64,000 nucleotides of DNA from Candidatus Heimdallarchaeota archaeon (GTDB taxonomy: Archaea > Asgardarchaeota > Heimdallarchaeia > JABLTI01). This document shows, one piece after another, positions 4,672-10,424 of this stretch. Both the position numbers and the translations under genes were made by a program. The DNA lies in NCBI GenBank assembly GCA_018238155.1, contig JABCTZ010000007.1:124001-188000 (forward strand), given 5' to 3'. Below the pieces are notes generated by a model. The model was not told the DNA's origin. It saw nothing but the letters and a program-made list of their open reading frames with translations, and did no database searches. Position 1 is the first letter of the stretch; each line of letters begins with the position of its first letter.

Positions 4672-5949
4672 ATGTCTTTCGAACTTATTTATTCCATCAT
4701 AATTCCCATAGTAACTCTTGCTGCTTTGCTTTATGCAGGAATTGAGGATATTCTCCATAGAGAGATTCGAAGAGAAATTGTCTGGATTATTATGGTTATC
4801 GTTGGATTAGTAATGGATACTTTATATGTCATTAATGCAGAAGATCAAAATAAGGCTCTGCTTCTGATCTTAATTACTGTTGTTTTAGGATTTTTAATTG
4901 GGTTTGTTTTGTTTTATCTTGGTGTATGGGGTGGTGCTGATACCAAAGCACTATGGGCGCTCTCAATACTTACTCCTATTAATCCTCTTACTAGTAATTT
5001 AATAAACATTAATTTGCCCGATTTATTGATAATAAATATCATTGACTCAATGGTATTTTCTTTATTGTTGAATGCTGGACTTGTAGCTATTTTTTATCCA
5101 ATAATTCTGATGGTAGTAAATACTATTTCAGCATCAAAGGAATCACTCTTTGAAGAAGTAAGGGGAACTACATCCCAAAAAATCAGATGTTTCTTCTTCG
5201 GATATAAAAAGAATATAAGCAAAATTAATGAGAAAAAAATACATTTTGATTTTCTAGAAGAATTCAGTGATAGAGAATTTGAAGGTAAATTTGAAGGTGG
5301 TTTTGAAGGTCGATTAGATGGTAAATTCATTGGTATTTTTGATGGTGAGTTAATAGGTGAATTTACTGGAAAAGCAACTGGGGTGATTCAATTGTCTGAT
5401 ACAATAGATTTCGAACAACTATCTTTTGATAATGCTATTGCCAAAGCTAAACAGTTTACAAAAGAATTTGAACTCAGAAAAGATGATGATGAAACAGTAC
5501 CTGCTCTCTTAACGAAATATCGCAGGACGTTTGAAGGAACAGAAGACGCCGTTTTAGATTCTAAGGAATATATAATCAATATTGATGGTAGACATACTCA
5601 TCCAATTAAAGGATGCTTCATTGGTACACTTGAAGGAATTTTCGAAGGCAAGTTATCTGGTAAAATGTTTGGTAAATTAGTAGGCGATTTTGAAGGTCAA
5701 TCATCAAAAGGAAAAATAATTGGCAATACTACCAAGAACTCTCAAAATTGGCAACTAAATATACGAATGGGTTTAGATGAAGATGAAGTTATGGAACAAA
5801 GACAATTGAGAACTCTTTGGCAACTAAGAAAACAAAACAAGAAATCAGTCTGGGTAACCCCTGGAATACCTTTTGTTTCTTTAATGTTTTTAGGCTATAT
5901 TCAGTATTTGTTGTATGGCAATATTGCTCTACTTTTATTCAATTTATAA
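4672..5949 (+). CDS. A24-family prepilin/preflagellin peptidase with a large inserted tetrapeptide-repeat domain
   Basis: The two catalytic aspartates of the membrane A24 peptidase family (PilD/FlaK/PibD) are visible: Asp26 in AGIEDILHREI and Asp90 in GGADTKAL. Four to five membrane segments fill residues 1-160, and a last one is at about 393-425, beginning with the family-typical PGIPFV. Between them lies a soluble insertion of about 230 residues. It contains two blocks with strict period-4 glycine spacing: about residues 203-236 (GKFEGGFEGRLDGKF and on) and about 318-345 (GCFIGTLEGIFEGKLSG and on). Family members are usually 200-350 residues, so this protein is large. It probably processes class III signal peptides of archaellum or pilus subunits. 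The role of the insert is unknown. Confidence 0.85.
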   Translation: MSFELIYSIIIPIVTLAALLYAGIEDILHREIRREIVWIIMVIVGLVMDTLYVINAEDQNKALLLILITVVLGFLIGFVLFYLGVWGGADTKALWALSILTPINPLTSNLININLPDLLIINIIDSMVFSLLLNAGLVAIFYPIILMVVNTISASKESLFEEVRGTTSQKIRCFFFGYKKNISKINEKKIHFDFLEEFSDREFEGKFEGGFEGRLDGKFIGIFDGELIGEFTGKATGVIQLSDTIDFEQLSFDNAIAKAKQFTKEFELRKDDDETVPALLTKYRRTFEGTEDAVLDSKEYIINIDGRHTHPIKGCFIGTLEGIFEGKLSGKMFGKLVGDFEGQSSKGKIIGNTTKNSQNWQLNIRMGLDEDEVMEQRQLRTLWQLRKQNKKSVWVTPGIPFVSLMFLGYIQYLLYGNIALLLFNL

Positions 5950-7444: not shown

Positions 7445-8305
7445 CTAGTATTTTCTTTTCTTTTTACTAGCATTTACTTCTTTTCTTAGCGTATTTAGTT
7501 TCTTTTCTAGTTCTCTTCTATTTTCTCGGAGATTTCTTAATGTACCAATTAAAACCCCCTCGAGAGTAAATACTTCAGCATTTTCAAAATCAATTGCATC
7601 TCTCATTAGTACTATCGTTCTAAAATACTCGCTATCTATAGAATATCCTTCGATATATCTGTTAAATGGGGGAATAATAATATGAATTCTATCCGGTTTT
7701 CCTTCTAAAATATTCAACCATTTTGCTTTTACCCAAACCTTTTGAGTTATTTTAGAGCCTATTTCATCACGAAAGGTATACGCAGGATGAGCATGAGCAG
7801 AAATAGTTATGTCAGCAGTCCATACATCTAATGCAGGTGATGCATGCCCATGCCAAAGACCGATTGATTTATTTGTTTCTTTTTGCGTTAATCGAAATCC
7901 TTCAGCTTGAATAAGATTGATTTCTTCGGGAATGACTTCTTCAATTTTTCCATCATGATTTCCTTTTACTATTATTACATTTGTTTTTTTCACTAATCGT
8001 TTAAGAAACTTCCAAATTCTTCCTGCAATTGGGTGTGGTGTTCCATAAATAGCGTCTTTAAAATCACCTAGAAATATTAACGTGTCCGGTTTTTTTTCAT
8101 CAAGTAACCGAATGATATCATCTTCTGGTCGTTTTGATTCTGGAAGAATGATTCCTTTTTTGTTTCTTCCATAAACATAACCAATGTGTAAATCAGAAAC
8201 AATTAATGTTTTATTCATTTCCTTTTCATTAAACATTATTGCAGGTATCCCTGGAATAATTATTGAATTAGATTGCCCTTTCTTCTCATTGATGGACTTG
8301 GTCAT
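7445..8305 (-). CDS. Calcineurin-like metallophosphoesterase (ICC-like)
   Basis: All metal-binding motifs of the calcineurin-like fold are present in order: DLHIGY (about 37-42), GDFKD (about 80-84), GNHDG (about 115-119), HGHA (about 152-155) and SAHAHPAY (about 169-176). The overall layout matches the archaeal COG1407 group of predicted phosphoesterases, whose substrate is not established. The C-terminus is a basic, coiled-coil-prone tail (NLRENRRELEKKLN). The gene is the last of a minus-strand run (Rag-like GTPase, longin-like protein, phosphoesterase) with short gaps, so co-expression is plausible, but a functional link is not shown. Confidence 0.88.
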   Translation of the reverse strand: MTKSINEKKGQSNSIIIPGIPAIMFNEKEMNKTLIVSDLHIGYVYGRNKKGIILPESKRPEDDIIRLLDEKKPDTLIFLGDFKDAIYGTPHPIAGRIWKFLKRLVKKTNVIIVKGNHDGKIEEVIPEEINLIQAEGFRLTQKETNKSIGLWHGHASPALDVWTADITISAHAHPAYTFRDEIGSKITQKVWVKAKWLNILEGKPDRIHIIIPPFNRYIEGYSIDSEYFRTIVLMRDAIDFENAEVFTLEGVLIGTLRNLRENRRELEKKLNTLRKEVNASKKKRKY

Positions 8306-8354: not shown

Positions 8355-9416
8355 TTAAAAGATTGCAACAAGTTTCACAAATAGAAAATCGATTAATAAC
8401 TCTAAACTTTCACGTGTAATTCCTGTTACAAAGAAAAATTCTGTTAGTTTTTTTCCATCTAATTCTTTTCCAATTATGCATTCTATCCATTCTCCATGTG
8501 TTTCTTTGAAAATAGCAATTTGGTTTGCAATTTCTTCGCTCTTAAATTCGGATATGGTATATGATTCCATTGCAACTAGATATTGCGAGAAAGGCATGTA
8601 ATAGCGAATATCCACATCCTCAAGTAGCAATCTATCTAAAAATTCCAAACAAGATATTATTCTATTCTCTTTATTTGAGAAATCAATTACAACATCTAAA
8701 ATTCTTGATAATATATCTAATCCAATTTGCAAGTTATCTGGAATTCTTCTTTGGACTATAACTTCAATTCGCGTTTTTTCTGTAGAAATACTTATTTCCT
8801 TATGAGAAAAATCTTCTTTTGACTCAAAAAATGCTTCTTTGCTTGCAATAGAAAGGCTATAGTTTGATTGTTTCAAAGAAATGATTACTTTTTGAAACAC
8901 ATTAAATTTTTCACTAACTAGTAAACGTGATGTTTCTTGTTTCGGAATAATTTCACTTTGAGTCTTAATCTTTGGTTTCCTTTCTTGTAGTGAAACAATT
9001 TCATTGTTACTTAATTTGCTTGGAAGTATGAAATTAGCGATTGAAGTTAATAACCCATTTAACATCTTAAAATATGGTCTATTATTACTTCTTTTTTTAC
9101 TTGTAGAAATAAGCACATCTAATATTTTCTCTGCCTCAATCAAATCTATAGCTGGTTGAGCTATTAATCCTAATCCAAACTGTCTTTTCTTTCTGGGGAA
9201 ATTTGGATCATCTAAAGAAATAGCTTTTGCGAATGCAGTTTTATTTCCAACTTTTCGAACAGAGAACTCATTTGCTCTTATTATCCACATTAGTAAATTT
9301 TCATTACTTGTAACATTTGGAATTTGAAAATTCTTTGGATTTTTATTTCGTATAACCGGTCCTTTTAGCGAATCAAATTCAACAAGAATTATGCCCAACT
9401 TTGTACTTTTTATCAT
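8355..9416 (-). CDS. Unrecognised protein with longin-like N-terminus, next to a Rag-like GTPase
   Basis: The 353-residue protein begins with KLGIILVEFDSLKGPVI. Such a strand-turn-strand opening (hydrophobic strand, 'GP' turn, second strand) is typical of longin-type domains such as those in NPRL2 and related GTPase regulators. The middle part contains a low-conservation linker (about 125-170) and then alternating strands and helices. No enzymatic motif is visible. It lies 48 bp downstream of the Rag-like GTPase on the same strand, so it may be a partner or regulator. The longin call is a pattern-based hypothesis. The protein could instead be another Asgard-specific roadblock/longin-like scaffold. 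Confidence 0.45.
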   Translation of the reverse strand: MIKSTKLGIILVEFDSLKGPVIRNKNPKNFQIPNVTSNENLLMWIIRANEFSVRKVGNKTAFAKAISLDDPNFPRKKRQFGLGLIAQPAIDLIEAEKILDVLISTSKKRSNNRPYFKMLNGLLTSIANFILPSKLSNNEIVSLQERKPKIKTQSEIIPKQETSRLLVSEKFNVFQKVIISLKQSNYSLSIASKEAFFESKEDFSHKEISISTEKTRIEVIVQRRIPDNLQIGLDILSRILDVVIDFSNKENRIISCLEFLDRLLLEDVDIRYYMPFSQYLVAMESYTISEFKSEEIANQIAIFKETHGEWIECIIGKELDGKKLTEFFFVTGITRESLELLIDFLFVKLVAIF

Positions 9417-9464
9417 AAACTACACCCAAATCTAATTTAATGTTTTTTTTATTTGCTCTTTTCA

Positions 9465-10424
9465 TTAAATCTTATAGTCATTATAAGCATCTCTCAAATG
9501 TTCTAACCCTGTGCGATTTATGATTCTCGACATTCCCATTTGTGTTTTTGGAAATCCAATTAAAAGTGCTAAATAATCATCTTTTGAACAATTAATTCTA
9601 GATACAATACTATAATTTGACTCGTCCTCATCCTCAAGTACAATAATCTTTATTCCTCCAACTTCCAAATCTGTTTGGAAGTCTTCAATAGCAGAGAAAA
9701 TTTTCGCTACATAAGCAGCAAAAACGGTGGAATTTTCTACTCCTGTAAATGATTCACCAATGAGTAATCCATTTGGGTCTGTTATAAGAACGATTTTTGC
9801 ATTTGTTTGCTTTCGAACCCATTCAGCTAATTTATCAAAACTGATTCTATTTATGCCAACATGTTTAGCAATAACTTTAACAAATGGCTCATGAATTGTT
9901 TCAGGATTATGAAGTGTAGTCTCAAATATCTTGAATTGATAAATAACACTTGGGAAAAGATGTTCTAAAGGGTCAAGAATTTGTTTTTTGATGGTTAACC
10001 CATTTTCCGCTTCTTCTAGGTCTTGTTTATGAGCTAAAAGTAGAAAGTTTTTACATTCAGGGGAAAGCTGCATTAAATCTTCAATTGATCTTTGTAGTTC
10101 TTCTCTAGCTTCATTTATTCTTTCAATCTCAGATGAATCCACAACAAAAATAAATGTGCTAACATTTTCAAAGTACTCGTTTTTCATCGTCCCATGAAAT
10201 TCTCTTAATCGTAAATCTTCTTGTCCTGGTGGAATGAAAAAAATATATTTCTTTTTTAAGAATATTTTTTCTGAAATCTCGAGATCTTTACTAGGTGTTC
10301 TTCTTTGAGCAGCTTCAATTGGGATATATTTCATTATATCTTGAACTGAACTTTTCCCTGCATTATCTAATCCCGCAATTAGAACTTTCTCAATTACCAT
10401 CTCCAATTCTTGCTCTGTTTGCAT
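9465..10424 (-). CDS. Rag/Gtr-like small GTPase fused to a C-terminal roadblock/LC7-like domain
   Basis: The GTPase domain (about residues 9-190) has a P-loop GLDNAGKSS (18-26), a switch II region PPGQEDLR (65-72) and G4 HKQD (132-135). The His-Lys-x-Asp form of G4, with preceding FENVSTFIFVVDSS and SPECKNFLLL, resembles RagA/Gtr1 more than Arf or Ras. The usual Asp of DxxG is absent before PPGQ. The C-terminal part (about 195-319) reads like a roadblock/LC7 fold (AKIVLITDPNGLLIGES). GTPase plus C-terminal roadblock is the architecture of eukaryotic Rag GTPases, which signal amino-acid status to TORC1. Function in archaea is unknown. Asgard genomes are known to encode Rag-like GTPases. Confidence 0.75.
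   Translation of the reverse strand: MQTEQELEMVIEKVLIAGLDNAGKSSVQDIMKYIPIEAAQRRTPSKDLEISEKIFLKKKYIFFIPPGQEDLRLREFHGTMKNEYFENVSTFIFVVDSSEIERINEAREELQRSIEDLMQLSPECKNFLLLAHKQDLEEAENGLTIKKQILDPLEHLFPSVIYQFKIFETTLHNPETIHEPFVKVIAKHVGINRISFDKLAEWVRKQTNAKIVLITDPNGLLIGESFTGVENSTVFAAYVAKIFSAIEDFQTDLEVGGIKIIVLEDEDESNYSIVSRINCSKDDYLALLIGFPKTQMGMSRIINRTGLEHLRDAYNDYKI

Follow-up and report, generated by a model that had tools for sequence, protein, structure and literature searches.

The question raised by this locus is whether two adjacent archaeal genes encode a Rag-like GTPase and a longin-domain protein dedicated to its control. Small GTPases are abundant in Asgard genomes. In our own cells, the Rag GTPases convey the nutrient signal and are turned off by NPRL2 of GATOR1, and the known eukaryotic longin GTPase-activating proteins (GAPs) of this type work as heterodimers. 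The analysed window, a stretch of 64,000 nucleotides, comes from the 4.08-Mb genome of a Heimdallarchaeon, an Asgard archaeon. The pair that it contains most likely consists of a Rag-like GTPase and a longin-domain protein that regulates it, probably as a GAP. Published work already describes Rag-like GTPases of Asgard archaea that are fused to roadblock or longin domains, as well as a Rag-Rag operon in MK-D1 (PMC10933270), and crystal structures of LokiRags exist (8yl2, 8zla). In the mainly open-access literature, we found no report of a conserved GTPase-longin pair, of the archaeal longin Arg or of a cognate GAP for Asgard small GTPases.

Both genes are located on the minus strand, as are the motifs and domains within them given below. 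The GTPase gene (window positions 9465-10424, 319 aa; ORF, Pfam, Foldseek and tree) is followed after a gap of 48 bp by the gene of the longin-domain protein (8355-9416, 353 aa; ORF, AF2 model, Foldseek and profile match to NPRL2), the candidate regulator. The positions and the gene order agree with an earlier note on this DNA. A divergent gene, named rpoB from its sequence, lies upstream of the GTPase gene. In the genomes of the genus, the pair is followed by a metallophosphoesterase gene (7445-8305 in the window, on the same strand as the pair), which was not seen at the Njord-type pairs. Elsewhere in the window, positions 4672-5949 encode a membrane protein resembling a prepilin peptidase, which has a glycine-rich repeated insert (FEGKFEGGFEGRLDGKF...).

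In the AF2 model (pLDDT 74, pTM 0.52), the longin protein is composed of a longin domain (residues 7-127; 9036-9398), a second α/β domain (residues 162-241; 8694-8933) and a helical C-terminal region (residues 250-352; 8361-8669), the last being well conserved in the genus. The longin domain has the topology β1β2-α1-β3β4β5-α2-α3 and carries the family signature EFD...GP......P (residues 13-27; 9336-9380). F14, G19, P20 and P27 of this motif are invariant in 12 sequences, and the motif forms the most conserved columns across 43 Asgard longin domains. The first 12 PDB rows of the Foldseek search contain only longin chains of GATOR1, SEA, FLCN-FNIP2, DENND10 and Lst4. The best matches are those of GATOR1/SEA (NPRL2 type), followed by FLCN-FNIP, DENND10 and Lst4, in line with the regulators that the earlier note had named for comparison and with its remark that this gene starts like a longin. 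The GATOR1, SEAC and FLCN-FNIP2 chains match with E-values of 4e-5 to 1e-2 and a probability of mostly 0.92-1; the rmsd is 3.0-3.7 Å over 105-112 columns in the cleanest matches, and several of the others are long alignments with a high rmsd.

As a single query, the longin protein found nothing in Pfam or the PDB, so its relatives have to be sought with profiles. A profile of 11 diverse Asgard longin domains matches NPRL2 at E=0.0021, the sole match with E<1 among 177,635 PDB sequences, and a profile of the window longin family alone reaches NPRL2 at E=0.59. Among the sub-threshold Pfam matches are Afi1 and C9orf72-like, both members of the DENN/longin class, and Pfam detected no DENN domain in the protein. 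For the C-terminal region, the profile search found no credible PDB relative, and the matches to TRPV2 and IF3 (E 0.07-0.25) were taken as chance. The A1 profile gave weak C-terminal matches in other Asgard genomes (560-aa ORFs).

A single residue of the longin domain, Arg75 (9192-9194), stands out as a candidate arginine finger. In the HMMER alignment to 6ces_N, the Arg of 'PNFPRKKRQF' (Arg75) is placed opposite the Arg of 'KYSRNALLF'. The latter is NPRL2 Arg78, which is catalytic in GATOR1 (PMC9646525, PMC7464330), and the residue numbers of the aligned segment are consistent with this. The AF2 model locates Arg75 in the β4-β5 hairpin, between strands 59-70 and 73-86, and it is in that hairpin that longin GAPs keep their finger (PMC12803157). 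The longin arginine fingers described so are NPRL2 Arg78, FLCN Arg164, SMCR8 Arg147 and Avl9 R116 (PMC7464330, PMC8213707, PMC12803157). Of the 43 distinct Asgard longin domains, 37 (86%) have an Arg at the site of Arg75 or one residue earlier, mostly within RGG, RGK or RKK. This Arg ranks with the best-conserved residues of the Asgard family, and four weaker relatives outside the 43 (L162, L163, L166 and L167) have it as well. Conservation at the exact column was considered and dropped, since the hairpin varies in length (the Arg is two columns off in L030) and the paired longin L034 of genome G163 has no Arg there. Judged by its presence and alignment, Arg75 may be the catalytic residue.

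On balance, we lean towards a two-gene module in which the Rag-like GTPase is served by a dedicated longin-domain regulator acting as a GAP via Arg75. The GTPase could dimerise by means of its likely roadblock domain, and the longin domain would physically bind the GTP form of the GTPase, with Arg75 inserted from the β4-β5 hairpin beside the γ-phosphate. The longin protein would then act as a GAP rather than as an exchange factor (GEF), by analogy with the pairs NPRL2-RagA, FLCN-RagC and SMCR8-ARF1. Longin GAP action has been proposed for NPRL2 on RagA and for FLCN on RagC, and structurally shown for SMCR8 on ARF1. A scaffold or exchange factor, comparable to MglB, the TRAPP longins or Ragulator and with a structural role for Arg75, seems rather unlikely. 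Roadblock/longin platforms do have GEF or scaffold roles in MglA-MglB, TRAPP and Ragulator (PMC10933270, PMC3521125), and the paired longin L034 without the Arg would suit such a role, but the closest folds are GAP-type longins, not TRAPP or MglB, and the strong conservation of the hairpin Arg across the Asgard family also argues for a GAP.

The GTPase contains the G1 P-loop GLDNAGKS (residues 18-25; 10350-10373), with G18, G23 and K24 invariant in 12 paired GTPases, and the G4 motif HKQD (residues 132-135; 10020-10031), which is of the Rag-type HKxD form, as had been noticed before. The G3 motif is PPGQ (residues 65-68; 10221-10232), in which the usual Asp is absent and the catalytic-type Gln68 is present; P66, G67 and Q68 are invariant in the 12. 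The G3 Asp is missing from all 12 paired GTPases, whereas G3 is of the DxGGQ type in nearly all sampled Rags and Arfs. Because its G3 departs from DxGGQ, we call the protein Rag-like rather than Rag, and since the Asp is missing, catalysis may not proceed as in Rag. The earlier note was silent on this Asp and on the equal Pfam scores for Arf and Rag given below.

A roadblock-type domain likely occupies the C-terminal region of the GTPase (residues ~191-318; 9471-9854), in keeping with what had been proposed from the sequence. Pfam gives a match to Robl_LC7 of 18.5 bits (E=0.0017), below the cut-off of 23, and the secondary structure is predicted, at low confidence, in the roadblock order α-β-β-α-β-β-(β)-α. 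The AF2 model has a pLDDT of 62 overall, with a good G domain and a poor last third. Moreover, Foldseek matches the full length of the model to Rag/Gtr chains, including RagA, LokiRagM, LokiRagO and Gtr2. Rag/Gtr chains take the first 14 places among its PDB matches, mostly with alignments of ~320 columns, before any Arf appears.

Whether the GTPase belongs to the Rag or the Arf side is less clear-cut. The Pfam scores are 57.0 bits for Arf and 56.8 bits for Gtr1_RagA (cut-off 22; profile 1-206 of 232). Between G3 and the following core Asp the spacing, which reflects switch II, is 27; the reference values are 26 for RagA and Gtr1 and 21 for Arf1 and Arl3, and the comparison is limited to these and to cleanly read cases. 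A profile of the 12 paired GTPases finds LokiRagO (8yl2) best, with E=1.7e-23 and an alignment reaching the start of the roadblock domain, followed by Arl3, Arl2 and then RagA (1.1e-18 over 10-277). The trees sampled Rag and Arf, with MglA not among the rows, as the one MglA-like sequence available gave too short an alignment. In the tree of 69 rows, the Arf side is split from a side formed by Rags and paired GTPases (support 98/91; 99/86 in a second analysis). The paired GTPases form one clade (95/92), sister to the sampled Rags (84/74) and thus beside rather than within them. The AU test does not reject placing them with Arf (p=0.46, at a difference of 1.03 log units). Closer relatives of Rag are encoded elsewhere in the same genome, on contig C8 (Gtr1 E=8e-23).

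Architecture and best tree placement therefore favour, without proving, a Rag-like GTPase at or near the Arf-Rag junction. The earlier assignment to Rag rather than Arf stands as far as the best tree and the Rag-first fold matches go, while a grouping with Arf is not rejected by the AU test. MglA, too, has a G3 without the usual Asp. Its Walker B Asp is found elsewhere, as Asp-58 on strand β2 (PMC11016934). An Arf- or MglA-type GTPase that gained its roadblock domain independently, paired with a longin nearer to C9orf72-SMCR8/Avl9 (Arf GAP) than to GATOR1, would account for this resemblance, and also for the near-identical Pfam scores, the AU result and the Arf-side GTPases of the longin-GTPase-longin fusions described below. 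We judge this origin unlikely, as the HKxD motif, the Rag-like switch II spacing, the full-length fold matches and the best tree all speak against it. It is compatible with the GAP mechanism, and both may hold together.

The pairing itself is conserved. Both genes are carried by 9/9 genomes of the genus and are adjacent wherever the contig lets adjacency show, the longin gene being split by contig ends in G058 and G060. Across the nine genomes, protein identity is 59-91% for the GTPase and 39-80% for the longin protein, so the pair of ORFs is not a product of chance. The gene order around the pair, including the phosphoesterase and a flavoprotein, is likewise kept across the genus, and adjacency there is therefore not independent evidence. 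The pair recurs, with other flanking genes, in four distant Njordarchaeia-type genomes (G169, G171, G172 and G163), three of which have named records (Njordarchaeota B6_G17, Njordarchaeota B13_G17 and JZ-1.bin_83). In all four, the longin gene comes after a GTPase gene that belongs to the clade of the paired GTPases and overlaps it by a few bases, and the longin adjoining the GTPase is the one detectable longin of this type. The co-occurrence in other Asgard genomes that the earlier note had raised thus extends well beyond the genus. The wider gene order kept inside the genus could suggest two mere neighbours of unrelated function, sharing one transcription unit beside rpoB and the phosphoesterase, but this is highly improbable given that the pair with overlapping ORFs persists in the four distant genomes where the other neighbours differ, and that in other lineages a single chain contains both types of domain.

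In the genome of the window, we found no strong second longin gene, only weak relatives on contigs C6, C7 and C8. Longin adjacency as a general property of Asgard Rags was considered and rejected: among ~30 top Rag loci, only three show it, namely a fusion at L111, a membrane longin at L120 and a weak case at L121. The pairing thus belongs to this GTPase subfamily and a few others.

More widely, the longin-domain profile has matches in 174/228 Asgard genomes, with up to 13 per genome. Longin-GTPase-longin fusions occur at L057/L087 (G108), L089, L092, L094, L146 and L148, and their GTPases are on the Arf side where placed in the tree. Both longins in these chains usually retain the hairpin Arg, and L057 has a PAS-like region after them. 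In many Asgard genomes, PAS-containing proteins and proteins of ~300 aa have at their C-terminus a longin domain that bears both the GP and the Arg motif (L018/L082, L090-L102). At L120/L165 (G004 contig C15), the neighbour of a 308-aa Rag-like GTPase is a membrane-anchored longin, with many predicted transmembrane segments after the longin domain. In the genome of the window, two convergent Rag-like GTPases of 407 and 581 aa are encoded at G000 contig C8:10424-14889 (L001, L003, L164 and L169). Upstream of the second is encoded a large protein that combines a transmembrane helix with a longin-like domain at its C-terminus ('VILSLFDQAKGP', 'NARGG'), the latter weakly supported by profiles; G009 (L121) has a comparable layout, also with weak support from profiles. 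In addition, paralogous 166-aa proteins (L006 910-1407 and L007 2087-2584, on contigs C41 and C10 of the genome of the window) are encoded just upstream of Arf-like GTPases and are possibly another type of dedicated GTPase partner.

Compared with known systems, the archaeal longin protein resembles NPRL2 of GATOR1 (Npr2 of yeast SEACIT) in its N-terminal longin with the EF/GP/P motif, in the hairpin Arg aligned to Arg78, in its genetic link to a Rag-like GTPase and in having NPRL2 as top Foldseek and sole PDB profile match at E<1. In contrast to NPRL2, its C-terminal half has no detectable sequence relative, and a shallow search found no DEPDC5 or NPRL3 partner here. FLCN-FNIP2 and C9orf72-SMCR8 share a longin with an Arg in the equivalent loop, catalytic there, and a small GTPase of the Rag/Arf side, which is their substrate; unlike the archaeal protein, they are large longin-DENN heterodimers. 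The GTPase shares its HKxD motif, long switch II and, in all likelihood, its C-terminal roadblock with Rag/Gtr proteins, including LokiRagO (8yl2) and LokiRagM (8zla), and differs in the Asp-less G3 and in its own clade. MglA-MglB likewise pairs a GTPase with a roadblock/longin-fold regulator in one operon, whereas the archaeal GTPase likely has a roadblock domain of its own and is partnered by a true longin of NPRL2 type. The existing asCOG category 'NPRL2-like longin domain', assigned in Ca. Lokiarchaeum ossiferum, is probably the same family; there it is an annotation class, for which we found neither a GTPase pairing nor an arginine finger described (PMC9834061).

Taken together, the fold, the NPRL2-only profile match, the Arg, the kept pair, the single clade of paired GTPases and the fusions elsewhere count for a GAP pair. 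The Arg missing from L034 and shifted in L030, the want of a second strong longin, the Asp-less G3 of the GTPase, the longin pTM and the GTPase pLDDT count against it. It is possible, although we hold this only tentatively, that the Rag-type longin GAP with an arginine finger, the off-switch of mTORC1 nutrient signalling, was already an Asgard operon pair before eukaryotes, and that the expanded Asgard longins are largely such GAPs. If true, the off-switch of the Rag nutrient pathway may predate eukaryotes. The pair and its predicted catalytic residue offer a concrete, cheap and direct test of whether longin-domain GAPs do so, and bear on the origin of Rag-GATOR1/FLCN nutrient signalling and of the DENN-type regulators of membrane traffic.
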